Counted from the stretch's first letter, positions 25,766-45,434 are shown. The stretch is DNA of 64,000 nt from Thomasclavelia cocleata (GCF_900102365.1 NZ_FOIN01000011.1:1-64000), one strand, 5' to 3'. Translations and numbers: made by a program. Notes: generated by a model from the letters alone, not told the origin.

Positions 25766-25769
25766 TTAA

Positions 25770-28592
25770 TTAAATATTGTTAGTAATATAATTAAAGAGT
25801 TCTTCTTTTATAGGTGTTTCTAATTTATATGTAAATTGAATTGCAGAATTTTTATTATCAGGAAGTTTTACATTAATAGGTTTATTTATGGCATGTAATT
25901 GTCCCATGTAATAGAATTCTTTTGAAGTAGTATCATTTTTGTTTTTTCTTACAAATAAATGAATTTGAATATGATTATTAGTTTCGTTATATATTCTTTG
26001 AATTTCATCAGAATCAATACTACGATTTGGTTTGGAAAAACAAATTAGAGTACTAGTATCGATAAAACGATGTGAATATTTACCGCCATGACCAGCATCA
26101 TGATCATGATTAATAAATACTGGCATTGTATTAGTTCGCTGATCAAATTTATAACCACCGATATTAAGAGGAACAGCGTTTACTTCCCAATTTAATAAAC
26201 GACATACATCTTCATAAGTATATTTTTGATATAAACATAGATCGGTGTTTTTATGTGGATTGCTGTAGTTTTGTTTGTAACGATTAATTCCAAAATCTAT
26301 TACTTCAAGTAATTGATTTTTAAAAATATTATTTTGTAATAATTCAATTAATTGTGGATGAGTGTTTAAATTATTATCAATAAAAATGGCTTCTTGAAAT
26401 GTTGCTTTGGCCCCACCAGTCGCGAATTCTTGCTTTAACTGATTAATTATTGGAAGATAATTTATTTCTTTAAATTCAATATTATATTCATTAAATAGCT
26501 GTTTCTTTAATAAAGTAATAATATTATTTTTATTTTCGATACATAATTTAATTGCTAATAGTTCATGAATACGTTTACCAACTGCAAATTTATTAGAAAC
26601 ATATTCAAGATATTTTTCTTGTAGTGGTGTGAATTTAATAGAATATTCTTTTTCATATTTACTGAGAAATTTGTGATATGAGCCTAAACTTTTATTTTGG
26701 AAAATTCTTAAAGGATCAATCGAGTTATATTTATCGAAATCTGATAAATTAGGAATTTTTCCTAATTTATATTTTAATTCCTGATAACTATCTCTAATTA
26801 TTTTTAGATCATTAAACTTGGCTTGATCAATAGATTCATAGATTTTCTTTTTAGAAATTAAATCAAAATTAATTGTTGAAGCACCTGGTAATAATAAACT
26901 ACCTTCATTTACAAATCTTCTTAGGCTATCTTTGTTGTATGTGTAATTACCACTTAAAGCAATAGGAATTAAGAAGTTCTTTTCATAATTGCCAATAAAA
27001 TCGATAATTACAACATAATCTTTAGAAATATTTTTACGTAATCCCCGTCCTAATTGTTGTACAAAGATAATGGCAGATTGAGTAGGGCGTAACATAATAA
27101 TTTGATTTACTTTAGGAATGTCAATACCTTCATTAAATATATCAACAGTAAAAATATAATCTAAAGTATCATTTTCTAATTTATCAATTGCTTTTTGACG
27201 TTTTGTTTCACTATCATCACCTGTTAGAGCAACTGTATGATAGCCACGTTGATTGAATAAATTTGATAGTTCAATTGCTTCATCTTTACGACTGCAAAAA
27301 ATTAATCCCCGTACTTTATTTCCAGAATGACCATATAAGTTAATTTTATCAATAATATGATCAATACGAATACTAGTAACTAAATTATTGAATGATGTTT
27401 TATCATCAATACTTATACCATTAATAGAAATATCAGATATCCCATAATAATGAAAAGGACACAATAAATCATACTCCATTGCTTGTTGTAAACGAATTTC
27501 ATAAGCTATGTTATAATCAAACGTTTTATAGATATCAAAGTTATCAGTTCTTTCAGGAGTAGCTGACATTCCTAATAAAAATTTAGGTTTGAAATAATTG
27601 ATTAGTTCTTGATATGAATTAGCACCAGCACGATGCACTTCATCGATAATGATATAATCAAATGTATCAGGTTTAAACGTTTCACGATATTTTTGTTTAT
27701 GAATAGTTTGGATTGTTGAAAAGATATAATCACTATCAATATCTTTATTACTTCCAGTAAAAATTCCAAAGGTATGGTTCATAATTAAATTTTTGAAAGT
27801 ATTCATAGCATCACAAGCAATATTTTCACGATGAACAACAAATAACATTCTTTTAGGATCAACGTTTTTTACATCAAAAGCACTTAGATATGTTTTACCA
27901 GTACCTGTTGCAGAAATTAATAGGGCTTTATCCTTATAATCATTTCGCAATGCTTTTAGTGATGCTAGTGCTTCTTGCTGCATTAGATTAGGTTGGATAT
28001 TTTGATGTTTAATAGTTGGTATAGCTATCTTAGGAACATATATTTTTTCATATTCACTGATCCATGATTTTGTTAAAGGGATAGAATGAAACCATTGCAT
28101 ATTAAATTCATCTATTATTTCTGTAACTATGTCATCACATATATTTGCTTTAATCTTAATATTCCATTCCTGGTTTGTTGATAATGCAGATTGGGTTAAA
28201 TTAGAGCTTCCAACAATGATATCAAAGTTATTATTATGTTTAAAAATATATCCTTTAGGATGAAATCCTATTTGCTCATTTTCAAAAATACGAACTTCGA
28301 TATTATCAAACATTAATAATTCTTTAAATACATTAGGATGATTAAATCCTAGATATGTTGATGTAATGATTTTACCCCTAATTCCTTTATCTTTTAAATC
28401 AATCAATGCTTGTTTAATTACTGCTAAACCAGATTTATTGATAAAAGCAATAGAAAAATAGAATGTATCACATGAATTTAATTGACTAATTAATTCATGT
28501 GATATTTTTATTCCTTGTTTGTAGTTGTTGGTTAGTAGTTTAGTTTTATTTGTGTTACTAATGAAAGTTTCAGATTGCAATAATGTATCCAT
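25770..28592 (-). CDS. PLD-nuclease / DEAD helicase / DUF3427 protein (defence-type)
   Basis: 940 residues. Domains in order: phospholipase-D-like nuclease (about 20-170) with GFHPKGYIF (His-x-Lys) and IVGSSNLTQSAL; superfamily 2 helicase with Walker A SATGTGKTYLSAF (about 240), IIIDEVHRAGANSY, LLGMSATPER (about 330); helicase C with FIFTVDIFNEGIDIPKV-like segment and QQLGRGLRK (about 500); and a DUF3427 C-terminal region. Such proteins occur in phage-defence islands; the mechanism is not settled. ATG 28592 has AAGGAG seven bases upstream; the longer frame lacks one. Divergent from vsr, 104 bases away. Confidence 0.88.
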   Translation of the reverse strand: MDTLLQSETFISNTNKTKLLTNNYKQGIKISHELISQLNSCDTFYFSIAFINKSGLAVIKQALIDLKDKGIRGKIITSTYLGFNHPNVFKELLMFDNIEVRIFENEQIGFHPKGYIFKHNNNFDIIVGSSNLTQSALSTNQEWNIKIKANICDDIVTEIIDEFNMQWFHSIPLTKSWISEYEKIYVPKIAIPTIKHQNIQPNLMQQEALASLKALRNDYKDKALLISATGTGKTYLSAFDVKNVDPKRMLFVVHRENIACDAMNTFKNLIMNHTFGIFTGSNKDIDSDYIFSTIQTIHKQKYRETFKPDTFDYIIIDEVHRAGANSYQELINYFKPKFLLGMSATPERTDNFDIYKTFDYNIAYEIRLQQAMEYDLLCPFHYYGISDISINGISIDDKTSFNNLVTSIRIDHIIDKINLYGHSGNKVRGLIFCSRKDEAIELSNLFNQRGYHTVALTGDDSETKRQKAIDKLENDTLDYIFTVDIFNEGIDIPKVNQIIMLRPTQSAIIFVQQLGRGLRKNISKDYVVIIDFIGNYEKNFLIPIALSGNYTYNKDSLRRFVNEGSLLLPGASTINFDLISKKKIYESIDQAKFNDLKIIRDSYQELKYKLGKIPNLSDFDKYNSIDPLRIFQNKSLGSYHKFLSKYEKEYSIKFTPLQEKYLEYVSNKFAVGKRIHELLAIKLCIENKNNIITLLKKQLFNEYNIEFKEINYLPIINQLKQEFATGGAKATFQEAIFIDNNLNTHPQLIELLQNNIFKNQLLEVIDFGINRYKQNYSNPHKNTDLCLYQKYTYEDVCRLLNWEVNAVPLNIGGYKFDQRTNTMPVFINHDHDAGHGGKYSHRFIDTSTLICFSKPNRSIDSDEIQRIYNETNNHIQIHLFVRKNKNDTTSKEFYYMGQLHAINKPINVKLPDNKNSAIQFTYKLETPIKEELFNYITNNI

Positions 28593-28696
28593 GATATTAC
28601 TCCTTGTAGTTATCAATAGTATAATGTATTTTAGTGACAATAACTAGCGATTTACTTTTATAAATGATAAAATATATTAAGAAATGGGTGATAACT

Positions 28697-29119
28697 ATGG
28701 CAGATTGTATGACAAAAGAGCAGCGTTCAAGGAATATGTCACATATTAAAAGCAAAGACACTTCAATAGAACTAAAGGTTAGAAAGTATTTATACCATCA
28801 TGGTTTTCGATATAGAAAGAATGTTAAAACATTACCTGGTAAGCCAGATATTGTACTTTTAAAATATAGAACTGTCATCTTTATTAACGGCTGTTTTTGG
28901 CATCATCATTTTAATTGTAAATATGCAACATTGCCAAAGACAAGACAGGATTATTGGCTAAAGAAAATTAATCGAAACGTTGAAAATGATTTAAAACATT
29001 ATAAAGAATTAGAACAAATGGATTATAAAGTTATTGTTGTATGGGAGTGTGAACTTAAAGAGTGCTTTGAATATAGGATGGAGAAACTAATTGAGGAGAT
29101 AATTGAACTAATTATATGA
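28697..29119 (+). CDS. vsr: very short patch repair endonuclease
   Basis: 140 residues. Nicks DNA 5' of the T in T:G mismatches produced by deamination of 5-methylcytosine. Family motifs: EQRSRNMSHIKSKDTSIEL at the N-terminus, FRYRKNVKTLPGKPDIVL (catalytic Asp), VIFINGCFWHHHFNCKYATLPKTR (zinc and catalytic His/Cys), and WLKKINRNVENDL plus VVWECEL. Its position upstream of two cytosine-5 methyltransferases fits: it would repair the mutations they promote. ATG 28697 follows GGGTGA with 5-base spacing; the ATG at 28664 lacks a ribosome site. Confidence 0.93.
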   Translation: MADCMTKEQRSRNMSHIKSKDTSIELKVRKYLYHHGFRYRKNVKTLPGKPDIVLLKYRTVIFINGCFWHHHFNCKYATLPKTRQDYWLKKINRNVENDLKHYKELEQMDYKVIVVWECELKECFEYRMEKLIEEIIELII

Positions 29120-29563
29120 AGTTTAAACCAGAGTGTAATAAATTGTCTATTGTAAAAATATATAGTAATTCAATAGTTTCTATAAATAAGGTTATCTGGT
29201 CTTTAATATTTTTTACATTTTCGAGTACTAGTAAAATTATTTATATAGAAAATAAACGATAGATAGTAAACGTCGTTAAGATATTGTAGAGATATTGATA
29301 TAGTAAAAAAATTTAGAAATTTTAAATAAAAATATCGAAATTCAAATTATAGTATGTTGCAGAAATGTGGAAAATATGGTATTATCAAAAATTATAGTTT
29401 AAGTAAAGTAAATAAGTATGATTTTAAATATTATTGTTAATAATCAATGAAATAAATTTATTGAAAATGTATTTGATAAAGAAACTAATATAAAAAAGAA
29501 GTATATTGTTTTAAATATATTAATATTTTTAGTTTAATTAAAATTTAATTTGGAGAGAGATAA
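29120..29563. other. AT-rich intergenic region, no clear feature
   Basis: 444 bases between vsr and the first methyltransferase. Composition is above 75% AT. There is a 48-codon frame (29116-29262) that overlaps the vsr stop by ATGA, but it has no ribosome site or recognisable features. A weak TTGAAA...TAATAT pair lies at 29461-29491 (19-bp spacing). I see no RNA or repeat; the methyltransferase promoter presumably lies in the last 120 bases. Confidence 0.5.
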
Positions 29564-30766
29564 ATGAAATATAATTTTATAGATCTGTTCGCAGGATGTG
29601 GTGGATTAAGTGAAGGATTTTATAAAGAGAAGTTTAATGCATTAGCACATGTTGAAATTGATAAATATGCATGTCAAACTTTAAAGCGCCGTATGCAGTA
29701 TTATAACTATAAAAATGCTGATTTTTCTGTTATTGAAGATGATATAACAAGTGAAAGTATTATTAGCAAACTTGATGAAAGGGTTGCTGGTAAAAGAGTG
29801 GATATAATTATAGGTGGTCCCCCATGTCAGGCATATTCTAGTTTAGGAAGAGCAAAGGATGAAAAAAGAATGCAAGAAGATCCACGGAATTTTTTATTTG
29901 AAAGCTATGTTAAAATTTTAAATCATTTTAAACCAAGATTTTTTGTTTTTGAAAATGTTTTAGGAATGTTGAATGCTAAAGTTGGTGGGAATAAAATAAT
30001 TGATTTAGTTTTTAAATCACTAGAAGAAAATTATAAAGTTGTTTCAGATCCAGAAATAATTGTATTAAATTCAGTAAATTATGGGGTACCTCAAATAAGA
30101 AAAAGAGTTATTCTTATAGGTGTTAGAAATGATATTCAGATTAACCCTAAACAAGTATATAAGGATATAAAAAAAACACACTATAGTCCTGAGTTAGAAA
30201 ATCAATCATGCAAAGGACTAAAAAAATATGTGACTGTAAGGGATGCAATTGAAGAACTTCCCAAATTGTTGCCAGGTGGTGGGGATAAAGAAATATATTT
30301 TGTTTCAAAAAAGAATAATGAATTTTTAAAACAAATAACTGATAATGAGAAAAATGTACTGTATGATCATGTTTGTAGAAATCATAATTTTAAGGATATT
30401 GAAAGATATAAACAAATGAGTGAAAATAATTGGACATTTAGTGAACTTTTAAAAAATAGACCAGATCTTTCTCATTCTAAAAGACGTGTTTTTGGTAATA
30501 GTTATGTTGTTCAATGGTGGGATTATCCATCAAAAACCATTATCGCTCATCTTTATAAAGATGGAAATCAATTTATTCATCCTGATAGTAAGCAAGGAAG
30601 AACGTTAACAGTAAGAGAGGTGGCAAGATTACAGTCTTTTCCAGATAATTTTATTTTTATGGGTTCTCGTACCCAACAATACAAACAAATAGGAAATGCT
30701 GTACCTCCCTTATTGGCCCAAGCAATTGCAAAAAGTGTTAAAAAGCATTTAAAGGAAGTGAAATAA
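29564..30766 (+). CDS. DNA cytosine-5 methyltransferase (M1)
   Basis: 400 residues. Motif I DLFAGCGGLSEGF (residues 5-17), motif IV IGGPPCQAYS with the catalytic Cys (about 88), motif VI FVFENVLGM, motif VIII VPQIRKRVILIG, and motifs IX/X PSKTIIAHLYKDGNQFIHP and QIGNAVPPLLAQAIA. A classic C5 methyltransferase; the target recognition region lies between VIII and IX (about 210-305). Ribosome site GGAGAGAG. M2 follows after 1 base. Likely protects one strand or half of an asymmetric recognition site. Confidence 0.93.
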   Translation: MKYNFIDLFAGCGGLSEGFYKEKFNALAHVEIDKYACQTLKRRMQYYNYKNADFSVIEDDITSESIISKLDERVAGKRVDIIIGGPPCQAYSSLGRAKDEKRMQEDPRNFLFESYVKILNHFKPRFFVFENVLGMLNAKVGGNKIIDLVFKSLEENYKVVSDPEIIVLNSVNYGVPQIRKRVILIGVRNDIQINPKQVYKDIKKTHYSPELENQSCKGLKKYVTVRDAIEELPKLLPGGGDKEIYFVSKKNNEFLKQITDNEKNVLYDHVCRNHNFKDIERYKQMSENNWTFSELLKNRPDLSHSKRRVFGNSYVVQWWDYPSKTIIAHLYKDGNQFIHPDSKQGRTLTVREVARLQSFPDNFIFMGSRTQQYKQIGNAVPPLLAQAIAKSVKKHLKEVK

Positions 30767-30767
30767 A

Positions 30768-32285
30768 ATGATATTTAAAACACCAATACAAAATTTATCA
30801 AAAACTGAAAAAAAATTTTTTAGAGAAAAAATAGATATATATATCAGATTAGTTGAAGTATTTTGTGAAAAAAATAATATAAATTATAGTGATTATAAAA
30901 TAAATGAAATTTATGATTTCGATAAGGAATATAGAAAAATAGGTGTTCTTAGTTTAGATGAATATAAAAATGATCTCAAAGTATTTTTAGGTCCAAGTTA
31001 TTATTGTTTTAAAAAAGCAGTATCATTTGCTATTGAGAATAAAGAGGAAATAAATCATTTACTATATAATCTTAATAATTATGAACGATTTCTTAAACAA
31101 AAGGAATTTTATTTAAATAATAAACCAACAGTAGTTGATTTTTTTTGTGGTGCTGGAGGGTTGAGCTTAGGATTTAAACAAGAAGATTTTAAGATAAAAT
31201 TAGCAGTTGACATTGAAGACGTATGTATTGAAACTTATACATATAATCATCCTGAATTACCTAGCAAATACATTATAAAAGAGGATATAAAAAATATTAT
31301 TGGTGATGTTGACAAGTATATAAAAGGCGATATCGATGTTGTAATTGGTGGTCCACCTTGCCAGGGATTCAGTGAAGCTAATAGACAGAGGATAATTGAT
31401 GATCCAAGAAATAAATTATATAAGTATTTTGTAAAAGCTGTTGAAAAAATATCTCCTAAATATGTAGTAATGGAAAATGTAAAAGGCATGCTGAAAGTAG
31501 CAAATCAAGTAGTTGAAGATTATAAAAATATTAAAACAGTTGTAAATGGTTTAGAAATTGGATATATAGCTGATTATAAAATTTTAAATTCAGTTAATTT
31601 TTCTGTTGCTCAGAATCGGGAAAGATTAATATATATAGCAATAAGGGAAGATATTGTAAAAAATAAAGCTGTTACACCAGAAATGATTTTTGAAAAAATT
31701 ATAAAGGATTGCGAGAATAAATCGCATTTTAATTTGGAAGATGCATTAAAAGATATTAAAATTTTGGATTCAAATTTTGTAAAAAATACAAATGAATTAG
31801 ATAATGAAAAATCTGGAAAGAAAATAGATATTAATTATTTTGAAAATGAAAAAAATAAATATTTAAATTTAATCAATATGGGTGAGAGTATACCTTATAT
31901 ATTTAATCATAAGGCTAGATATTGTAGTCCGCTTAATTATGAAATATATGGTAAACTAAATCAAGGTGATAATGCAACTGATGAAAAAATAATGGATATT
32001 ATGCCATATGCACACAGAAATCATTGTTTTAAGGATAAGTATTTTAAACTTATTGCTGATAAACCTTGTAGAACAATAACTGCACATATGCGAATGGATT
32101 GCCATTCTCATATACATCCTTATCAGATTCGTAGTATTACTCCACGTGAAGCAGCTCGTATTCAGTCATTTCCAGATAGTTATCTTTTTTTAGGTCCTTA
32201 TTTGAAAACTTATATGCAGATTGGAAATGCTGTACCACCAATGATGTCTAGAGGAATAGCACATATTATAAAACAATATTTATAA
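30768..32285 (+). CDS. DNA cytosine-5 methyltransferase (M2) with N-terminal extension
   Basis: 505 residues. The first about 115 are a lysine-rich helical extension I do not recognise. Then motif I VDFFCGAGGLSLGF (about 122), motif IV GGPPCQGFSEANRQR (about 195), motif VI VVMENVKGM, motif VIII VAQNRERLIYIA, and motif X MQIGNAVPPMMSRGI. It is clearly different from M1, so it is not a duplicate. Two C5 methyltransferases plus McrB/McrC-like subunits is the gene set of LlaJI-type systems, where each enzyme methylates one strand of an asymmetric site. Confidence 0.92.
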   Translation: MIFKTPIQNLSKTEKKFFREKIDIYIRLVEVFCEKNNINYSDYKINEIYDFDKEYRKIGVLSLDEYKNDLKVFLGPSYYCFKKAVSFAIENKEEINHLLYNLNNYERFLKQKEFYLNNKPTVVDFFCGAGGLSLGFKQEDFKIKLAVDIEDVCIETYTYNHPELPSKYIIKEDIKNIIGDVDKYIKGDIDVVIGGPPCQGFSEANRQRIIDDPRNKLYKYFVKAVEKISPKYVVMENVKGMLKVANQVVEDYKNIKTVVNGLEIGYIADYKILNSVNFSVAQNRERLIYIAIREDIVKNKAVTPEMIFEKIIKDCENKSHFNLEDALKDIKILDSNFVKNTNELDNEKSGKKIDINYFENEKNKYLNLINMGESIPYIFNHKARYCSPLNYEIYGKLNQGDNATDEKIMDIMPYAHRNHCFKDKYFKLIADKPCRTITAHMRMDCHSHIHPYQIRSITPREAARIQSFPDSYLFLGPYLKTYMQIGNAVPPMMSRGIAHIIKQYL

Positions 32286-32299
32286 ACTGGAGATGGATT

Positions 32300-32932
32300 A
32301 TGGAAGTTATTCAAATTATAAAGAAACTCAACAATACAGAATTAGGAAAAAAAAATACACATGAAAGTTATATTTTAGTAAATAGAGGGTTGGATATTTC
32401 AGATTTATTTAAAAAAACTAATGTGCCACTGCAATTTATTTTTAAAAAAAATAATAAAGAAGTGATAACCATTCGGAAAACAGAAGGAAGAGAGACAAGG
32501 ATTGTAGGCTTAGGACCTTTTTATAGGAAATACAATTTAGAAGCTGGTGATGACATAATTTTAGAGAAGAGAATTGGTAAAACAGAGAATAATTTTTATA
32601 TCGATTTTAAAAAAAATGCTGATAAACTATATTTACAAAAAACTAGAGGATTATTTCAAGTTCTTACAAATGATCGTTTATCTTTGTTAGATAATACTTT
32701 TTTAATAATAGATAGCGAAAGCAAAAAAGTTGAACTAAGGTGTATAAAATCATGTATGAAAAGATCTGATTCACCTGAAGAAACTAAATTGTATGACTTT
32801 TTATTAGGGGGTATGAGTATTAAAGATAGATATATTAATAATGAAATAGTAGAGTTATCAGTTATAAATGGTAGGATAAAAATATTTAAGCCGATTCTTT
32901 GGAAAAAGATAGTTCTTGAATGGGAGGGATAA
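32300..32932 (+). CDS. stand-alone B3/EcoRII-N-like DNA-binding protein of the restriction operon
   Basis: 210 residues, not firmly recognised. The central ITIRKTEGRETRIVGLGPFY followed by RKYNLEAGDDIILEKRIG (about 55-95) has the pattern of the B3 / EcoRII-N / BfiI-C pseudobarrel (strand, Gly-x-Gly-x-Phe-Tyr, helix, Leu-x-x-Gly-Asp, strand). Family knowledge: the LlaJI.R1 subunit carries a B3 domain for site-specific binding, fused to its AAA+ motor. Here such a domain appears as a separate protein directly before the McrB-like gene (2-base gap). I infer that it is the specificity subunit of the nuclease. Confidence 0.6.
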   Translation: MEVIQIIKKLNNTELGKKNTHESYILVNRGLDISDLFKKTNVPLQFIFKKNNKEVITIRKTEGRETRIVGLGPFYRKYNLEAGDDIILEKRIGKTENNFYIDFKKNADKLYLQKTRGLFQVLTNDRLSLLDNTFLIIDSESKKVELRCIKSCMKRSDSPEETKLYDFLLGGMSIKDRYINNEIVELSVINGRIKIFKPILWKKIVLEWEG

Positions 32933-32934
32933 AA

Positions 32935-34371
32935 ATGACTAAATATTTCATAGTAACAGTTGATTCATTAGTAGATACGTTTTCTATAGTTAAAGCTGGT
33001 AGCAATATTTATGTTGAGTTTAAAACTAATGATAATAATATTTTTAATACTATTGAAAAAGGAGACAAAATACTAGGAATATATAATAATTGTGTAAAAT
33101 ACATATTTATTATGCAAAAAGTAACTGAAAAAGATAAAATTGTATTGAAAAAATATCTTGAGTTTGATAATGATATAAAAATTGATGAAATATATCAAAA
33201 TTATGAAATTAAAGAAATAAATAAGGAAGAGTTCAATAGAATTTATAATGAGATTTTATTAAATTTGAGTATTGATATTTCTTATCTCTACGAATTAGAA
33301 AATAAAGAATTTACCCTAAAAAAAAATAATAATATCATGAATGAAATCGATTATAATCAAATAGTATATGGTATTCCTGGCTGTGGAAAAAGCTATCATG
33401 TTGAGAATAAAATTTTGAAAGAGGTTGATAAAAATAATAATGTTATTAGAACAACTTTTTTTCCAGATTATTCTAATAGTGATTTTATCGGACAAATTTT
33501 ACCTTTTGTAAAAGATAAAGATGTTACATATAAATATGTACCAGGACCGTTTACTAAATCTTTAGAAAAAGCTTATAAAAATAAAAATGAAATGTTTTAT
33601 TTAGTTATAGAAGAAATTAATCGAGGTAATGCTGCTGCAATATTTGGAGATGTGTTCCAATTATTGGATAGGTTAAAAAAAAATAGTGATGATGAACGAG
33701 TTAAAGGTGATAGTGAGTATCCAATTTCAAATGAGTTTATTGAAGGGTATTTAAGACAAGAAAAAGTTAATTTTACACCTGAAAGAATACACATTCCTCA
33801 TAATTTGGTAATTATTGCAACTATGAATACTAGTGACCAAAATGTATTTCCTTTGGATACTGCATTTAAACGTAGATGGAAAATGGAGAGAATTACTAAT
33901 ACATGGGATGAAAATCATCCATTTGCTAATTACTATATTCCATTTACAAATATCACTTGGAAAAATTTTGTGGAAACAATAAATGAAAAGATGTTAGAAT
34001 TAACTAGTGATGGTTTGTATTTAGAAGATAAACAGCTTGGAGAATATTTTGCAAATGAAGAAATGTTTATTAAAAATAAAGCTGACGCATATATTGTAAA
34101 TGATGAAAATGAGAAAAAATTAAAAAACTTTACTTATAAAGTAATTGAATACTTATACAATGATGTATTTAAATTTAATAAAGATAAATTCTTTAAAGAA
34201 ACAACGATAAGCTTTAATAAGTTATGTGAAAGTATTATTAAATTCAATGAAAAAAAGACAGAATATATAGGTATGATTGAAACCTGTATGGACGTTAATT
34301 TTGATGTATCAAATGATGAGGGAATAGAGGATGTCATAATAGAACCAACTGATGAAGTAGCAGGTGAATAG
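32935..34371 (+). CDS. McrB-like AAA+ GTPase with N-terminal EVE/PUA-like domain
   Basis: 478 residues. The N-terminal about 90 residues look like an EVE/PUA fold (YFIVTVDSLVD; NIFNTIEKGDKILGIY; YIFIMQKVTEKD), a fold used elsewhere to read modified bases. The AAA+ part follows: Walker A YGIPGCGKSYHVE (about 145), Walker B FYLVIEEINRGNAAAIFGDVF (about 220), and the McrB signature MNTSDQNVFPLDTAFKRRW (about 300). The motor of the restriction complex, expected to hydrolyse GTP. ATG 32935 follows GGGAGGGA; the in-frame ATG 32920 lies inside the previous gene. Confidence 0.85.
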   Translation: MTKYFIVTVDSLVDTFSIVKAGSNIYVEFKTNDNNIFNTIEKGDKILGIYNNCVKYIFIMQKVTEKDKIVLKKYLEFDNDIKIDEIYQNYEIKEINKEEFNRIYNEILLNLSIDISYLYELENKEFTLKKNNNIMNEIDYNQIVYGIPGCGKSYHVENKILKEVDKNNNVIRTTFFPDYSNSDFIGQILPFVKDKDVTYKYVPGPFTKSLEKAYKNKNEMFYLVIEEINRGNAAAIFGDVFQLLDRLKKNSDDERVKGDSEYPISNEFIEGYLRQEKVNFTPERIHIPHNLVIIATMNTSDQNVFPLDTAFKRRWKMERITNTWDENHPFANYYIPFTNITWKNFVETINEKMLELTSDGLYLEDKQLGEYFANEEMFIKNKADAYIVNDENEKKLKNFTYKVIEYLYNDVFKFNKDKFFKETTISFNKLCESIIKFNEKKTEYIGMIETCMDVNFDVSNDEGIEDVIIEPTDEVAGE

Positions 34372-34374
34372 AAT

Positions 34375-35592
34375 ATGATTGCTCAAAATGAAGTTGAATT
34401 AATACATGTAAAAGAATCTAATAGATTTATAGGAATAAAAATAAACAATAGCAAAATAGAGGTTCATGTACCACAAATATTTCACAAAAATGTTGATGAA
34501 AAAGTGTATCATCGTGATTTGTTAAAGTTTCTAAAAAGTCTTTCATTGGTAACTGCTATGAGTGAGGATATTCAGATAAGTGATAATGAGTTAGTTGGGG
34601 AAATGTGGCCTATTGAATCATATTTATGGATGATTAATGATTTTTTTGAAAATGGTTATTATTTCAATCGTGAAAAGAAATATTATCATGATAATAAAGG
34701 TAAAATAGATTGGAAAAGAACACTAAGAACAACTCCAATATACTCAAATGGTAATATTATATATGATAAATTAATTACTTCAAGAGTATCTGCAAGTGAT
34801 GATAAAATTGCTCAGATTTATAAAATTTGTTTATCTATTAGTTTGAAAAGAATTGGATGGATTTATAATTTGAATTTTAAAGTTGATGTACAACAACATA
34901 TGTCAAATCAAATAATGATATATAATATACAAAAAGAGTTGGAATCAACCTTTGATGATGTTAAAAGATTACGTTTTAGACATATGTTAAAAGTAATTAG
35001 AGATATAAAAAGAGACAATGCTTTAAGTAATAAATCAACATTTGGTATTACAAATTACTATTATGTTGTTGAAAGAATGATTGATAAAATCTTTAAGGGT
35101 ATAAGTGCAAAACAATTAAAAGTTTACAATCCGTATGGATGGTGGGAAGTTGAAGGAAAAAAAACAAAGGCTTCTTTACTAAGACCAGATACTATTTATG
35201 AGCAGAATGATAATATTTATATTATTGATTCTAAAATGTATAAATATGGATATACTGCTAAAAAAAGCGATTTACCACAAACTTCCTCAATACTGAAACA
35301 AATTGCATATGGTGACTTTGTAAAAAAAATGCATCCTGGTAAAAATGTTAGAAATGTATTTATTATTCCATATGATAAAGAACTAAATGAGTTTAAGTTA
35401 TTAAATAAATCAAAAGTTTTAGAATATATAGGTAAAGCAAGCGGTGAATGGAATGTAAATGATGTCGAACATAATAGTATTTATACGTATGTCATTGATT
35501 ATATGTATTTATTAATGAATTATAATAATCCTAATAATACATTAATCGATGAATTGTGCTCTTCAATAGAAGAATATATCTCTAAAAAATAA
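34375..35592 (+). CDS. McrC-like nuclease subunit (LlaJI.R2 family)
   Basis: 405 residues. N-terminal beta-rich McrC-like region (about 1-160), helical middle, and a C-terminal PD-(D/E)xK nuclease: LLRPDTIYEQNDNIYIIDSKMYKYG (Asp, then Asp-Ser-Lys, about 262-285), which fits the McrC/LlaJI endonuclease pattern, followed by QTSSILKQIAYGDFV. Cuts DNA when activated by the McrB-like GTPase. Starts 3 bases after mcrB's stop with AGGTGA upstream; last gene of the operon, before a terminator. Confidence 0.85.
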   Translation: MIAQNEVELIHVKESNRFIGIKINNSKIEVHVPQIFHKNVDEKVYHRDLLKFLKSLSLVTAMSEDIQISDNELVGEMWPIESYLWMINDFFENGYYFNREKKYYHDNKGKIDWKRTLRTTPIYSNGNIIYDKLITSRVSASDDKIAQIYKICLSISLKRIGWIYNLNFKVDVQQHMSNQIMIYNIQKELESTFDDVKRLRFRHMLKVIRDIKRDNALSNKSTFGITNYYYVVERMIDKIFKGISAKQLKVYNPYGWWEVEGKKTKASLLRPDTIYEQNDNIYIIDSKMYKYGYTAKKSDLPQTSSILKQIAYGDFVKKMHPGKNVRNVFIIPYDKELNEFKLLNKSKVLEYIGKASGEWNVNDVEHNSIYTYVIDYMYLLMNYNNPNNTLIDELCSSIEEYISKK

Positions 35593-35637: not shown

Positions 35638-35762
35638 CTTAAAATGTTGAATATCCTATAATTTGTGATATTTATCTTTTTTTGTTAAAAAATATAGTTT
35701 ATATAGCTATAGTTAATAGTTTTAAAATAAGGTATAATAAAATAACGGAAAGGGTGATAGAA

Positions 35763-37388
35763 ATGAAAAAAGCTATTCCATTAGGAATAATGGATTATGA
35801 GAAACTAATAAAAGATGATTATTATGCAGTAGATAAAACATTAATGATCAAAGATTTTCTTGAAAGAAAAAGTAGTGTTACATTAATTACAAGACCAAGA
35901 AGATTTGGAAAAACAATCAATATGTCAATGATGGCAGAATTTCTCGATATCACTAAAGATTCTAAAGAAATATTTAAAGATACAAAAATTATGAAGACTA
36001 ATTATGCTGACCAAATTAATCAGTATCCAACTATTTTTATCACTTTTGCAGGAGCTAAAAACAGCTTACAGGAAATTGTAAGCTGGATAAAAAGAGGAAT
36101 CTTAAAAGAATATCAGCGTTATAAATTTATTTTAAATGATTTGGATGAATTTGATAAACCAGTTTATGAAGCAATAAAAAAAGAATTAATTAATTTTGAT
36201 AATAATCAATTAAATGATATTACGGATTCTTTATCATTTTTAATGGAGCAGTTAGAGAAATATTATCAAAAAAAAGTTATGTTGTTTATCGATGAATACG
36301 ATACACCATTTATTGAAGGACATGTGGGAGGTTTTTATAATGAAATAAAAGGTGGGTTAGCAGGATTGCTCCATAATGCTTTAAAGCTATCATCAAGCTT
36401 ACAGTATGCTATGCTTACAGGAATTCAAAGAGTAGCTAAAGAAAGTATTTTCAGTGATTTAAATAATCTTATAGTATGTACAGTAATGGATAAACGATAT
36501 GATCAGTATTTTGGTTTTACAGAAACAGAAACAGAAACGTTGTTAAAATATTATGATTTAAGATTAAATGATGAAGTAAGAGAGATGTATGATGGTTATC
36601 ATATGGGTGAAGTAGAAATATATAATCCATGGTCGATTATTAATTATGCAGATAATAAAGAACTAATTCCTTATTGGGTGAATACCAGCAGTAATATAAT
36701 GATTAAAAAGGTGATGGAAAAAAGTGAAGTAAGCTTCAAAGAAGGTTATGAAACATTGATCAGACAAGGGTATTTAGATACGCAGATAATGATGGAGACA
36801 AGTTTTTATGAACAGTCGCAGACAGAAAGCTTATGGGGATTGTTTGTAAATGCAGGATATTTAACAATAGAACAGATGATTCGAAAAAACAGATATCGAA
36901 TTAGGATCCCAAATGAAGAAGTACAGCAAGAATTTATGTCATTGACAGCTTATTATTTACAGGTATCAGAAAGTATTTTAGATGATTTATTTTATGCAGT
37001 AGAAACGAAAGACAAGAAATTATTTGAAAACAGTTATAAAAATATTCTAATGACATTGCCATCATATTATGATTTAAAGGACGAAAACAGTTATCATATG
37101 ATGATATTAGGTATGAGTGCCTGGTTAACAAGTGAGTATGAAATAATAAGTAATCAAGAAGCTGGATTAGGAAGATGTGATATTATTTTAAAGGCGAAAA
37201 AGGCTTTACCATCATATGTAATTGAATTCAAGTATACTAAGGATAAAAAGGAAATAGAAAAAGAATCAGAAGAAGCGGTAAAACAGATTATTGAAAAGGA
37301 ATATTCCAAAAAACTAAAAGGAGAAATAGTATATATAGGATTAGCTCATTGTGGTAAAGAAGTAGAAGTTAAATGGGTGGAAAAATAA
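35763..37388 (+). CDS. AAA-ATPase with C-terminal PD-(D/E)xK domain (DUF1703-type), copy 1
   Basis: 541 residues. N-terminal AAA-ATPase_like domain (PF09820 type): IPLGIMDYEKLIKDDYYAVDKT, Walker A TRPRRFGKTINMSMM (about 43), MLFIDEYDTPF (Walker B, about 170), TGIQRVAKESIFSDLNN (sensor). C-terminal restriction-like fold with GRCDIIL and SYVIEFKYTKD (Asp...Glu-x-Lys, about 480-500). Very common in gut Firmicutes and Bacteroidetes; the function is unproven, with links to defence and mobile DNA suspected. ATG 35763 follows AAGGGTGA. Related to the copy at 45720-47354. Confidence 0.88.
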   Translation: MKKAIPLGIMDYEKLIKDDYYAVDKTLMIKDFLERKSSVTLITRPRRFGKTINMSMMAEFLDITKDSKEIFKDTKIMKTNYADQINQYPTIFITFAGAKNSLQEIVSWIKRGILKEYQRYKFILNDLDEFDKPVYEAIKKELINFDNNQLNDITDSLSFLMEQLEKYYQKKVMLFIDEYDTPFIEGHVGGFYNEIKGGLAGLLHNALKLSSSLQYAMLTGIQRVAKESIFSDLNNLIVCTVMDKRYDQYFGFTETETETLLKYYDLRLNDEVREMYDGYHMGEVEIYNPWSIINYADNKELIPYWVNTSSNIMIKKVMEKSEVSFKEGYETLIRQGYLDTQIMMETSFYEQSQTESLWGLFVNAGYLTIEQMIRKNRYRIRIPNEEVQQEFMSLTAYYLQVSESILDDLFYAVETKDKKLFENSYKNILMTLPSYYDLKDENSYHMMILGMSAWLTSEYEIISNQEAGLGRCDIILKAKKALPSYVIEFKYTKDKKEIEKESEEAVKQIIEKEYSKKLKGEIVYIGLAHCGKEVEVKWVEK

Positions 37389-38883: not shown

Positions 38884-41800
38884 ATGGATAAAGAAAAAAT
38901 TAAGTATAGTATAGGCCTAGATATAGGAACGAGCTCAGTTGGGTGGGCTGTAGTTGATAACAATTTTAAATTATTAAAAAAAGGTAATAAAAATATGTGG
39001 GGAAGTCGATTGTTTGAAACAGCAAAAACTGCTGCTGATCGTCGTCAAAATCGTTCTAATCGAAGAAGATACAATAAAAGGCGGGAACGAATTAGATTGT
39101 TACAAGAACTTATGGCAAGCATGGTATTAAGTGTAGATCCAACTTTTTTTATTCGTTTAACACAAACTACTTTTTTGGATGAAGAAGATAAAAGTAGGTT
39201 TTTAAATGATAAATATAAGGGGAATTATAATTTATTTATTGAGGATGATTATAATGATCAAAATTTTTATAACAATTTTAAAACAATATATCATTTAAGA
39301 AATTATTTATGTCAAACTACTAAAAAAGAAGATCCTAGATTAATATATTTAGCTTTGCATCATATTGTTAAGTATCGTGGTAATTTTTTATATGAAAAGC
39401 AGGATTTTTCATTAGATGCTACAAGAATCGAAGATGATTTACAAAGTATTTTAGATAAAATTAATGAATTTAATGATTTAGGTATGATATTTGATGAACA
39501 GACAATTTTTAAAATATTAAATATTTTAAAAGAAAATAATAATCGAAGTGAAAAGATAGATAAGTGTTTAAAACAGATAGCTATTGATAAAAAGAATAAA
39601 CAAGTATTTAAAAATCTGTTTAGTGGAATAGCAGGTAATCAATTTAATTTTACAAAAATGATTTCTAATGAAGTTATACAATATGAAGATGAAGATATTA
39701 AATTAAAGTTTTCAGATGTGAATTTTGAAAATAAGATAGAGGAATATAGTGTTGCATTAGGAGAATATTTTGAATTTATTGAATTGATGAAAAAAATATA
39801 TAGCTGGATTACGCTAAATAATATTCTTAAATCTGGAAATAGTATATCAGAGGCAATGATCAATAGATATGATATGCATCATAATGATTTAAAAAGATTA
39901 AAAAAATTGATTAAAGAGTATGATAGAAAAGTTTATTATGAAGTTTTTAGAAATCAAAGTGATAAATTAAAAAATTATTACAACTATATAAATCATCCTG
40001 GTAAAACCAGTAGAGAAGAGTTTTATAAATATTTAAAAAAGGTATTAGAAAAAATAAATAATGAAGAAGTTAATTATTTTTTAATGAAGATTGAAGAGGA
40101 AGAGTTGTTATTAAAACAAAATGATCGTGATAATGGTGCTATTCCTTACCAGTTAAATTTAAATGAAATGAAGAAGATAATTGAAAATCAGTCGAAATTT
40201 TACGAAGATTTAAGAATAAATAAAGATAAATTAATTAGTATTTTAACATTTAAAATACCATATTATTATGGACCTTTAGATGGTAATGATAAATATGGCT
40301 GGTTAATTAAATATCAAAATAAAAAGCAGGAACGAATTACTCCATGGAATCATAATGAGGTTGTAGACATGGAAAGAACAGCTACAGCTTTTATTGAACG
40401 TTTAACTAGTTTTTGTACATATTTGCCTGATGAACTAGTTATGCCTAAAAATTCATTAACTTGTAATATGTATGAGCTTTTAAATGAATTAAATAGGATT
40501 AGAGTAAATGGAAAATTGTTGGGAAGAGATATTAAAGCAGGAATAATTGAAAAATTATTTATGAATAAAAAAATTATTAAAGAAAGTGATTTGAAAGAAT
40601 GGTTTATTAAAAACAAAATCTATTTAGAAATAGATGAGATTTCGGGATATCAAAAAGATAAAATATTTTCTTCTTCATTGGGGTCATGGATTGATTTTAA
40701 AAAGATTTTTAGTGTTATTGATGAGTCTAATTATTTAGTTATTGAAGAAATCATTAAAGATATCACAGTTTTTAATGAAAAAAATATTTTAAAGAAACGC
40801 TTAAAAAATGTTTATAAGTTGTCTAACGAGCAAATAAAGAAAATTTTAAAATTAAATTATAGTGGATGGTCAAAACTATCTTATGAATTAATTAACGGAA
40901 TTAAAGCTGATAATTGCTATGGAAGTTCAGTAAGTATTTTAGAAGTAATGAAGGAATCAAATCTTAATTTGATGCAGATAATTAATGATGATAAACTAGG
41001 TTACAAAAAAATCATAGATGAGAAGAACTGTTTTGAAACTGATGAAAAATTCGATTATGATGAGATAAAAAATTTACCTGGATCTCCAGCAATAAAAAAA
41101 GGAATTTGGCAATCGCTTCTAATTATAGAAGAAATAACAAAGTATATGAAGCATCAGCCAAAAAATGTCTATATTGAATTTGCACGTGAAGAAGGAAAAA
41201 AAGAGCGAACAAAAACACAAATAAAAAAACTTAAAAATATTTATAAAGATTTGGATTTACAGTTAAATCATGATATTTGGGTAAGAAATAAGCTTAATCA
41301 AGAAAAAGATGACTATAAGCTTAGTAATGAAAGATTGTATTTATATTATACGCAAATGGGAAAATGTATGTATTCAGGAGAGGCGATTGAAAGTATAGAT
41401 GATATTTTTAGTGATGAATTATATGAAATTGATCATATAATACCTCGTTCAATTATTAAAGATGATAGTATTGATAATAAAGTATTAGTAAAAAGAAAAG
41501 AAAATCAAAGAAAGTCAAATGATATTATTCCATTACCAATTAGAGAAAAACAAATTGAGCGGTGGAAATATTTATTAGATCACAAGCTGATATCTCAAAA
41601 AAAGTATTTTAATCTGATTCGTGATGAAATGGATTCTCAAACAATAGAAAAATTTATTAATCGTCAATTAGTTGAAACTAGGCAGATCATTAAACATGTT
41701 GCCAATATTATTGATAACCATTATGCTAATACATCAGTAGTAGCCATAAGGGCTAATATAATTCATGATTTTAGAATAAAGTACAATATTTATAAAAATC

Positions 41801-42843
41801 GTAACATAAATGATTATCATCATGGTCATGATGCATATATTGCTTGTGTTATAGGACAATACATGAAAATACGTTATCCACAATTTGATGCAAAATATGC
41901 TTATAATGAGTATATGCGCTATGGTAATAATAAACATGATAAATCAGGATTTATTTTAAATAGCATGAATTATGAAGGTTATGATAAAGATACTGGGGAG
42001 ATAATATGGCATCCTGATACAATTAAAAAAATTTTAAAATGTTTTAATTATCGAGATTGTTATATTACAAAAAAACTTGAGTCAAGTGATGGAGAATTAT
42101 TCGATGCAACTATATATTCGCCAAAAAGCAATAAAAAAGATTTGATTCCTGTAAATAAATTCAGAGCAAATAGTAATAAGTATGGTGGGTTTTCTGGAGT
42201 AAAATATATTATTTATGCAATTGAAGGAATTGATAAAAAATCGTCAGTTGTGCGTAAAATTGTCAAGGTTCCACTTATTTATAAAGATGAAAAACCAGAA
42301 AAAATAATTTCATATATTGAAAAGTATAATAATTATAAAGATGTTAAGCTCTTAAAAGTTATTAAGAAAAATCAATTAATTGAAATAGATGGCGGTTTTT
42401 ATTACATCACTTCACCAACCGAATTGAATACAGCCTGGCAGTTAGTTTTAAATCCACATGAAAATGCAGTAGTATATAAAATTAATCATGCACTAAAAAA
42501 TAATGTTGATAAAGAGTTGGATATTAAGGAACTGGATTCATTATATTTAAGTTTAATTGATAAATTAAACAATTATTATCCTAAATATCAAAGTACAATA
42601 AAAAATAAAATAATTGATCTACATGAACGATTTAAAAATTTATCATTACTTGATGCAGCAAAAGTAATTGAACAATTATTAGTTGCTATGTCTGCTGGTC
42701 CCCAAAATGGTAAAATTGACCTGCCTAATTTTAAAATTGGTGATCGTATTGGAAGATTAAAAGGACAAGATATTTTACTAGATAAAACTATATTTTATAA
42801 TCAATCAGTTACTGGTTTATATTCAAAAAAGGTAAAGTTATGA
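38884..42843 (+). CDS. cas9: CRISPR-associated endonuclease Cas9 (type II-A)
   Basis: RNA-guided DNA nuclease of 1319 residues. RuvC-I SIGLDIGTSSVGWAV (catalytic Asp13), arginine-rich bridge helix ADRRQNRSNRRRYNKRRER (about 52-70), long helical recognition lobe, RuvC-II VYIEFAREEGKK (Glu765), HNH YEIDHIIPRSIIKDDSIDNK with catalytic His851, RuvC-III YHHGHDAYIACVIG (His980, Asp983), and a PAM-interacting C-terminus. All catalytic residues are present, so it should be active. ATG 38884 has GGGGAG about 10 bases upstream. First gene of cas9-cas1-cas2-csn2, overlapping cas1 by ATGA. Confidence 0.97.
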   Translation: MDKEKIKYSIGLDIGTSSVGWAVVDNNFKLLKKGNKNMWGSRLFETAKTAADRRQNRSNRRRYNKRRERIRLLQELMASMVLSVDPTFFIRLTQTTFLDEEDKSRFLNDKYKGNYNLFIEDDYNDQNFYNNFKTIYHLRNYLCQTTKKEDPRLIYLALHHIVKYRGNFLYEKQDFSLDATRIEDDLQSILDKINEFNDLGMIFDEQTIFKILNILKENNNRSEKIDKCLKQIAIDKKNKQVFKNLFSGIAGNQFNFTKMISNEVIQYEDEDIKLKFSDVNFENKIEEYSVALGEYFEFIELMKKIYSWITLNNILKSGNSISEAMINRYDMHHNDLKRLKKLIKEYDRKVYYEVFRNQSDKLKNYYNYINHPGKTSREEFYKYLKKVLEKINNEEVNYFLMKIEEEELLLKQNDRDNGAIPYQLNLNEMKKIIENQSKFYEDLRINKDKLISILTFKIPYYYGPLDGNDKYGWLIKYQNKKQERITPWNHNEVVDMERTATAFIERLTSFCTYLPDELVMPKNSLTCNMYELLNELNRIRVNGKLLGRDIKAGIIEKLFMNKKIIKESDLKEWFIKNKIYLEIDEISGYQKDKIFSSSLGSWIDFKKIFSVIDESNYLVIEEIIKDITVFNEKNILKKRLKNVYKLSNEQIKKILKLNYSGWSKLSYELINGIKADNCYGSSVSILEVMKESNLNLMQIINDDKLGYKKIIDEKNCFETDEKFDYDEIKNLPGSPAIKKGIWQSLLIIEEITKYMKHQPKNVYIEFAREEGKKERTKTQIKKLKNIYKDLDLQLNHDIWVRNKLNQEKDDYKLSNERLYLYYTQMGKCMYSGEAIESIDDIFSDELYEIDHIIPRSIIKDDSIDNKVLVKRKENQRKSNDIIPLPIREKQIERWKYLLDHKLISQKKYFNLIRDEMDSQTIEKFINRQLVETRQIIKHVANIIDNHYANTSVVAIRANIIHDFRIKYNIYKNRNINDYHHGHDAYIACVIGQYMKIRYPQFDAKYAYNEYMRYGNNKHDKSGFILNSMNYEGYDKDTGEIIWHPDTIKKILKCFNYRDCYITKKLESSDGELFDATIYSPKSNKKDLIPVNKFRANSNKYGGFSGVKYIIYAIEGIDKKSSVVRKIVKVPLIYKDEKPEKIISYIEKYNNYKDVKLLKVIKKNQLIEIDGGFYYITSPTELNTAWQLVLNPHENAVVYKINHALKNNVDKELDIKELDSLYLSLIDKLNNYYPKYQSTIKNKIIDLHERFKNLSLLDAAKVIEQLLVAMSAGPQNGKIDLPNFKIGDRIGRLKGQDILLDKTIFYNQSVTGLYSKKVKL

Positions 42844-44690: not shown

Positions 44691-44749
44691 CACTATCTAA
44701 ATTATGGATGAAGTCGTTATTCATTTATACTTTTAAAACCTAATTTGAG
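44691..44749 (+). promoter_or_regulatory. type II-A CRISPR leader
   Basis: AT-rich leader between csn2 and the first repeat. Its last seven bases are ATTTGAG (44743-44749), the leader-anchoring sequence known for II-A integration in streptococci. Next to it, AAAACCT (about 44736-44742) is the inverse of AGGTTTT at the repeat edge. TATACT at 44726-44731 may be a weak -10. Confidence 0.75.
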
Positions 44750-45434
44750 GTTTTAGAGTTATGTAATTTAGAATAGTAGCAAAACACATTTATTTCCATT
44801 TTTATAAGTGCCATTGTTTTAGAGTTATGTAATTTAGAATAGTAGCAAAACTAAAATTTTTTCATGGTATGCCTCTGTTGAGTTTTAGAGTTATGTAATT
44901 TAGAATAGTAGCAAAACACAATGAAGAACTGTACGATATCACCGAACGTTTTAGAGTTATGTAATTTAGAATAGTAGCAAAACTATTATTTCTTTGTTCC
45001 TAACAGATTGACTGTTTTAGAGTTATGTAATTTAGAATAGTAGCAAAACTTCCAATCCAAAAACAATAACATGATAGTGGTTTTAGAGTTATGTAATTTA
45101 GAATAGTAGCAAAACTCCAGAATTTTTAAGCGAAGCAATAGCATCGTTTTAGAGTTATGTAATTTAGAATAGTAGCAAAACTTCTTTCCAATGGTCCCAA
45201 GTCAACCTATTGTTTTAGAGTTATGTAATTTAGAATAGTAGCAAAACAATATCTGCGGGATAGTATAAGTAGTAGTAGTTTTAGAGTTATGTAATTTAGA
45301 ATAGTAGCAAAACAGCATTTCGTATGATAAATCTAACGGGCATGTTTTAGAGTTATGTAATTTAGAATAGTAGCAAAACATACCATATGGAATATCTGAC
45401 AAAATCAGGGTTTTAGAGTTATGTAATTTAGAAT
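44750..45434 (+). CRISPR. type II-A CRISPR array, 11 repeats and 10 spacers
   Basis: 36-base repeats start at 44750 and recur every 66 bases through 45410; all spacers are exactly 30 bases. Repeats begin GTTTTAGAG and end AGTAGCAAAAC, the start of II-A crRNA handles. Ten are identical; the eleventh (45410-45434) matches for 25 bases and then stops, as expected for the leader-distal end. Transcription is from the leader side, on the plus strand. Spacer 1 (44786-44815) should be the newest. No spacer matches another part of this window by eye. Confidence 0.98.

Follow-up and report, generated by a model that had tools for sequence, protein, structure and literature searches.

The 64,000-nt stretch of DNA from the gut bacterium Thomasclavelia cocleata analysed here (GCF_900102365.1 NZ_FOIN01000011.1:1-64000; hereafter referred to as the window) carries, at positions 28697-35592, a locus that probably encodes a LlaJI-like, anti-phage restriction-modification (R-M) system, in which a stand-alone B3 protein would act as the specificity subunit of an McrBC-type motor nuclease and would dock on a short domain at the N-terminus of the motor. 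The genes follow one another on the + strand in the order vsr, M1, M2, a gene for a 210-aa protein, an McrB-like AAA+ motor and an RE_LlaJI nuclease. This order and the gene coordinates had been proposed from the sequence alone (hereafter the sequence-only reading) and were confirmed. Searches of Pfam, NCBIfam and PADLOC identified Vsr, two intact C5 methyltransferases, the AAA_5/McrB-like motor and the RE_LlaJI nuclease. The features are as follows.

25770..28640, - strand: DUF3427/ResIII/PLD-nuclease helicase of the PADLOC mREase_IV type, flank gene (Pfam DUF3427, E 5.9e-72)
28697..29119, + strand: vsr, mismatch nicking endonuclease, flank gene (TIGR00632, 138.8 bits)
29564..30766, + strand: M1, C5-cytosine DNA methyltransferase (PF00145, E 3.8e-68)
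30768..32285, + strand: M2, second C5-cytosine DNA methyltransferase (PF00145, E 4.6e-66)
32300..32932, + strand: stand-alone reader, 210 aa (AlphaFold pLDDT 81.4, Foldseek, homologues)
about 32300-32620, + strand: predicted B3 domain of the reader, residues 1-107 (B3 fold in the AlphaFold model)
residues 108-210 of the reader, + strand: second, beta-rich domain with the KRxDSP motif (AlphaFold model)
32935-34371, + strand: whole McrB-like motor (start chosen by ribosome-binding site)
32935..33288, + strand: motor N-domain (~residues 1-118) with a weak resemblance to EVE/PUA (homologue in locus L034)
33340..34371, + strand: AAA+ GTPase-type motor of the McrB/LlaJI.R1 kind (AAA_5, E 1.6e-9)
34375..35592, + strand: McrC-like nuclease of the RE_LlaJI family (PF09563, E 6.6e-30)

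The catalytic motifs of the locus are intact. Both methyltransferases retain the motifs GGPPCQ, ENV and GNAVPP, M2 has in addition a conserved N-terminal extension of ~118 aa, and no further C5 methyltransferase was found in the host genome. The motor retains its Walker A (GIPGCGKS) and Walker B (VIEEINRG) motifs as well as MNTSDQN, and it matches PADLOC REase_II (E 1.2e-66) and the McrB structure 6hz4 (E 7.7e-13). The PD-(D/E)XK residues of the nuclease (D272, D285 and K287) are invariant in six homologues. In a quick tree with SH-aLRT support only, as are all trees reported here, the motor groups with those of loci L034, L090 and L092, all of which adjoin RE_LlaJI nucleases (support 99). Two C5-cytosine methyltransferases in one operon (PF00145 twice), an McrB-like AAA+ motor of the R1.LlaJI branch by profile matches and tree, and an RE_LlaJI nuclease are thus present together, as in LlaJI-type systems. 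A strict LlaJI system has four genes with the reader fused to R1; because the B3 reader of the window lies in a separate gene, the cassette was filed as a LlaJI variant. It does not fall under type IV McrBC, which by definition lacks a cognate methyltransferase, as M1 and M2 share its operon.

The reader and motor genes are tightly packed. The reader stops at 32932 and the motor start is best placed at 32935, with a ribosome-binding site at ~32922-32927, inside the end of the reader gene; the corresponding spacing in L034 is 0 nt. This second example (L002/L034) carries the same split, which is thus neither a sequencing error nor a pseudogene.

At its left edge the cassette adjoins genes that belong to its surroundings. 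The sequence-only reading had counted vsr as part of the operon, but in G037, a genome of the same genus, the DUF3427 helicase, which is divergent from vsr (PADLOC mREase_IV, 737.6 bits), and vsr are kept at 83% nt identity, with another C5 R-M cassette next to them and the cas9 region beyond it. Since vsr stays beside a different R-M cassette there, we rejected it as a cassette member and delimit the cassette proper as 29564-35592. Because G037 keeps the helicase and vsr with a different cassette to their right, the site of the LlaJI-like cassette is an exchangeable slot in a defence island. The slot was noted at 25769-29119 of the window and at L138 3231-9873. The G037 cassette, which includes dcm, encodes a 470-aa protein with an NgoFVII-type B3-like domain. 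In genome G036 the helicase is present, and vsr and the cassette are absent from the compared interval. To the right, the window encodes an AAA-ATPase_like + PDDEXK_9 protein directly downstream of the cassette (35682-37388), a Cas9 of 1319 aa (38884-42843) in a region that is 90% identical in G037, and a CRISPR array (44749-45434) in which some ten or more 36-nt repeats recur every 66 nt.

The identity of the 210-aa protein rests on its predicted fold. It matched no family in Pfam, NCBIfam or PADLOC, and sequence and profile searches of the PDB with it gave nothing meaningful. The AlphaFold model, built with six homologues as input, has a pLDDT of 81.4 and a pTM of 0.74, and its residues 1-107 follow the B3 element order beta1-alpha1-beta2-5-alpha2-beta6-7, forming a seven-stranded open barrel with two short helices. 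The best Foldseek matches were plant B3 domains (TEM1 B3, E 4.1e-4), and the N-terminal domain of Helicobacter pylori LlaJI.R1 (6c5d) was matched with an E of 7.6e-4. A second structural aligner gave Z-scores of 12.3 for plant B3, 11.2 for 6c5d (106 residues, 2.5 A), 9.8 for UbaLAI, 9.6 for BfiI and 7.5-7.6 for EcoRII, with the first unrelated match at 3.9. A Foldseek comparison with viral proteins gave no significant match, and neither Foldseek nor the second aligner assigned a known fold to residues 108-210. The B3 domains of restriction enzymes such as EcoRII, BfiI and UbaLAI hold their DNA-reading arms in two stretches, and the residues shared by the five full-length readers include the two matching stretches. 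Common to all five are NNTELGKxNTH, GxExR, GDD/E and KRxDSP, the last of which reads KRSDSP in four of them. A separate B3-like protein, which the sequence-only reading had claimed at 32300-32932 and had proposed to check by structure prediction, is therefore what the model returned: as predicted, the locus encodes a B3 reader as a protein of its own, with the B3 fold over residues 1-107 of its 210 aa.

Relatives of this reader are few. Among 315 genomes of the order it was found in one further genome, an Erysipelotrichaceae MAG (L002 = L034), which has the same split and the same motor N-domain, with identities to the window of 42% for the reader, 46% for the whole motor and 37% for the N-domain; an apparent third homologue (L003, in G080) was rejected as a chance match inside an unrelated gene. 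A scan of GTDB genomes gave three Bacteroidales systems (L035, L036 and L037) and a genome search a fourth (L105), whereas plasmids, phages and IMG/VR gave none. In all four Bacteroidales loci an orthologous reader, including its second domain, forms the N-terminus of the motor protein (L105 is cut by its contig end inside the reader), and none of these fused motors carries the N-domain found in the window. Orthologous M1 and M2 are present in the three complete Bacteroidales loci, L035-L037, in which they could be read (the L034 contig ends inside M2). Identities are 55-60% between M1 and the Bacteroidales M1 and 54-67% between M2 and its relatives (54-60% overall for M1 and M2 against their Bacteroidales counterparts), and the trees place the M1 and M2 of the window each in one clade with the Bacteroidales enzymes (support 99 and 100, respectively).

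The motors and nucleases of the same systems do not follow this pattern. Against its fused relatives the motor of the window shows 35%, 26% and no detectable identity. In the motor tree L036 groups with EVE-McrB motors (support 100), L035 and L105 form a separate lineage (100) and L037 stands apart. In the Bacteroidales systems the reader is thus joined to motors of three kinds, and their nucleases differ as well; across all systems the nucleases are RE_LlaJI, PF10117 McrC, DUF2357+PDDEXK_7 and a 740-aa protein without an assigned family. This 740-aa protein, found at the nuclease position beside the B3-AAA motor of L037 (9722-11944), matches no Pfam family, and its IGDSKYYK stretch resembles a PD-(D/E)XK core. 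Motor and nuclease evidently come from at least three unrelated lineages. Because the methyltransferase clades are shared but the motors and nucleases differ, M1, M2 and the reader form a portable specificity cassette around which motor and nuclease were exchanged, and the detached reader is seen only in the Firmicute version of this cassette. Simple gene fission was rejected as the origin of the split, as the tree shows no orthology between this motor and the fused ones; since it does not descend from them, a motor replacement is indicated. The best explanation is that the reader historically belongs with the methyltransferases and not with the motor, and that in Erysipelotrichaceae a LlaJI-type pair took the place of motor and nuclease.

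The N-terminal domain of the motor is the point on which the possible readings of the locus diverge. The sequence-only reading had placed an EVE/PUA-like domain on the McrB-like subunit instead of B3, and had proposed a two-headed check of sequence plus modification. Residues 1-118 match no Pfam family, EVE included, and a PDB profile search with them gave nothing meaningful. An AlphaFold model computed with their only homologue reached a pLDDT of 41.5, so that the proposed structure prediction returned no confident fold, neither confirming nor refuting EVE, and the Foldseek list from the model carries no meaning. A control family was assembled from the EVE domains that EVE-McrB proteins carry (all four seeds match Pfam EVE; EVE-type structures 2gbs and 1zce in the PDB). 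Profile-profile comparison with this family gave a weak match over 75 columns (pairwise P 0.001); its score of 25.7 exceeds the highest value, 22.3, among 200 column-shuffled controls, and the alignment includes the GDxIxG core and the C-terminal helix motif. When a single EVE profile was searched, the domain of the window ranked 2nd among 10,000 shuffles and its L034 counterpart only 158th. The residues invariant in the EVE domains of this family (YWWL, NPK and NGNKRRIFQNF) are absent from the motor N-domain. The latter could possibly be a degenerate EVE/PUA relative. With a weak profile-profile match as the one sign of EVE, we do not retain the claim of an EVE domain in place of B3, nor the two-headed check built on it, in the form in which they were made.

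The two-headed enzyme still deserves consideration as the main rival reading, unlikely as we judge it to be. Here B3 would check the unmethylated target and the EVE-like N-domain would sense a modified base, with either head giving licence or both being needed. McrB proteins commonly have EVE as their specificity domain, and its combination with a methyltransferase of the system's own has been proposed for type I systems (PMC7641849). Both this precedent and the score above the shuffled maximum speak for such an arrangement, as does a LlaJI-type motor (L025) that probably carries EVE behind a different N-terminal domain, beside a C5 methyltransferase. They are countered by the missing Pfam match, the low rank of L034, the low pLDDT and the missing invariant residues. 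Moreover, with no C5 methyltransferase besides M1 and M2 found in the genome, a broad 5mC head would attack the host's own M1/M2 sites. A two-key enzyme, in which B3 reads unmethylated sequence, a degenerate EVE-like domain reads modification and the portable M1-M2-B3 cassette is plugged into unrelated motors, strikes us as rather improbable.

The B3 protein might instead be an accessory, acting as a regulator or as a helper of the methyltransferases, while the N-domain of the motor sets the target. The B3 gene does lie directly 3' of M2, and the motor does have a domain where other McrB homologues carry their reader; yet the four Bacteroidales systems fuse this same reader to the motor N-terminus, which is the place of the McrB and LlaJI.R1 readers, and their motors do without the N-domain of the window. 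We therefore give this possibility little credence. We consider it very improbable that the split arose by recent, perhaps broken, fission of a fused protein and has no functional meaning. The Bacteroidales relatives are indeed fused, but frames and start sites of the split version are intact in two diverged genomes (readers 42%, motors 46% identical), and its motor has another descent than the fused ones.

What favours a docking platform is the distribution of the N-domain: it was seen only in the two split systems, in both cases beside a detached reader, and a search of 309 genomes of the order, IMG/VR and plasmids found it nowhere else, with one insignificant phage match. A platform on which the detached reader docks is thus the most probable role of the domain.

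The nearest described systems differ in where the reader sits. LlaJI (Lactococcus pNP40, GACGC) and H. pylori LlaJI share with the window two C5 methyltransferases followed by an McrB-like motor and an RE_LlaJI nuclease, and H. pylori LlaJI.R1 (PDB 6c5d) shares the B3 reader. In LlaJI, however, the N-terminal half of the motor protein serves as reader, whereas in the window the reader has a gene of its own (32300-32932) and the motor carries a different, short N-domain. In the tree, the methyltransferases of pNP40 LlaJI also fall in a different clade from those of the window. The resemblance to LlaJI with a separate B3 reader, as originally suggested, agrees with the fold, the family matches and the second genome. 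EVE-McrB type IV systems share the McrB-like motor and, possibly, an EVE-like N-domain, but have the canonical EVE residues that the motor of the window lacks, no methyltransferase partner by definition and a nuclease of the McrC kind, in contrast to M1, M2 and RE_LlaJI. The motors of LlaI (pTR2030) and BsuMI, the methyltransferase(s) of which are likewise of the C5 type, are bare (337 and 343 aa), whereas that of the window has its N-domain. Both systems share with the window an extra stand-alone restriction subunit, an McrB-like motor and a nuclease, and were described in 2006 as three-ORF restriction cassettes with a bare McrB-like motor (PMC1459862).

Comparable arrangements recur among the 49 distinct motors from bacteria, plasmids and viral contigs, most of which carry a long N-terminal extension and are encoded directly after a methyltransferase gene. 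In L091, from the same order, a 257-aa non-methyltransferase ORF overlaps a nearly bare motor, and in the LlaI-like L098 a 252-aa ORF without a Pfam match precedes the bare 337-aa motor; in L025 and L072, too, an ORF of 244-246 aa without a family stands before the motor gene. The earlier statement that no such split had been described was thus half right: the split as such is anticipated by LlaI and BsuMI (PMC1459862), with L091 as a further case, while no description of a separate B3 subunit with an extra motor N-domain was found in our literature search, a weak absence as subscription papers were mostly outside it. The viral-contig motor of L025 (4604-6418) has its probable EVE domain at residues 129-276 (Pfam E 0.011, below the family cut-off; its score with our EVE search profile, in which L025 itself was included, is not independent) and adjoins, besides the C5 methyltransferase, a 244-aa protein also present in L070/L072. 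A fused B3-plus-EVE tandem was considered for the LlaJI-type motors of L025 and L070 and is not claimed, since hhalign found no link between their first domain and B3. A LlaJI-type motor on an L. curvatus plasmid (L096 5042-6975) is seemingly split by a frameshift relative to the contiguous version in L009.

For the preferred reading, with the B3 protein as specificity subunit, we infer the following course of action. M1 and M2 would methylate the target sites of the host, and the presence of two methyltransferases suggests an asymmetric site with one strand for each. The stand-alone B3 protein would, by homology, bind the unmethylated M1/M2 site, dock on the motor N-domain and either recruit the McrB-like AAA+ ring or join it as a peripheral part. 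Using GTP, the ring would activate the RE_LlaJI nuclease, which would then cut the invading DNA. In LlaJI itself, R1 binds the DNA and R2 acts as the nuclease; purified LlaJI.R1 showed no GTPase activity (PMC1459862), which leaves motor action putative in the LlaJI branch as such.

In McrBC-type enzymes the reader is normally joined to the AAA+ ring, which masks how reading is passed on to the motor. A reader family that is found free as well as joined to three unrelated motors makes the transfer from reading to motor testable. If the free subunit acts in trans, it would be HsdS-like, as in type I systems, and would provide GTP-driven nucleases with a naturally occurring specificity module that can be swapped.
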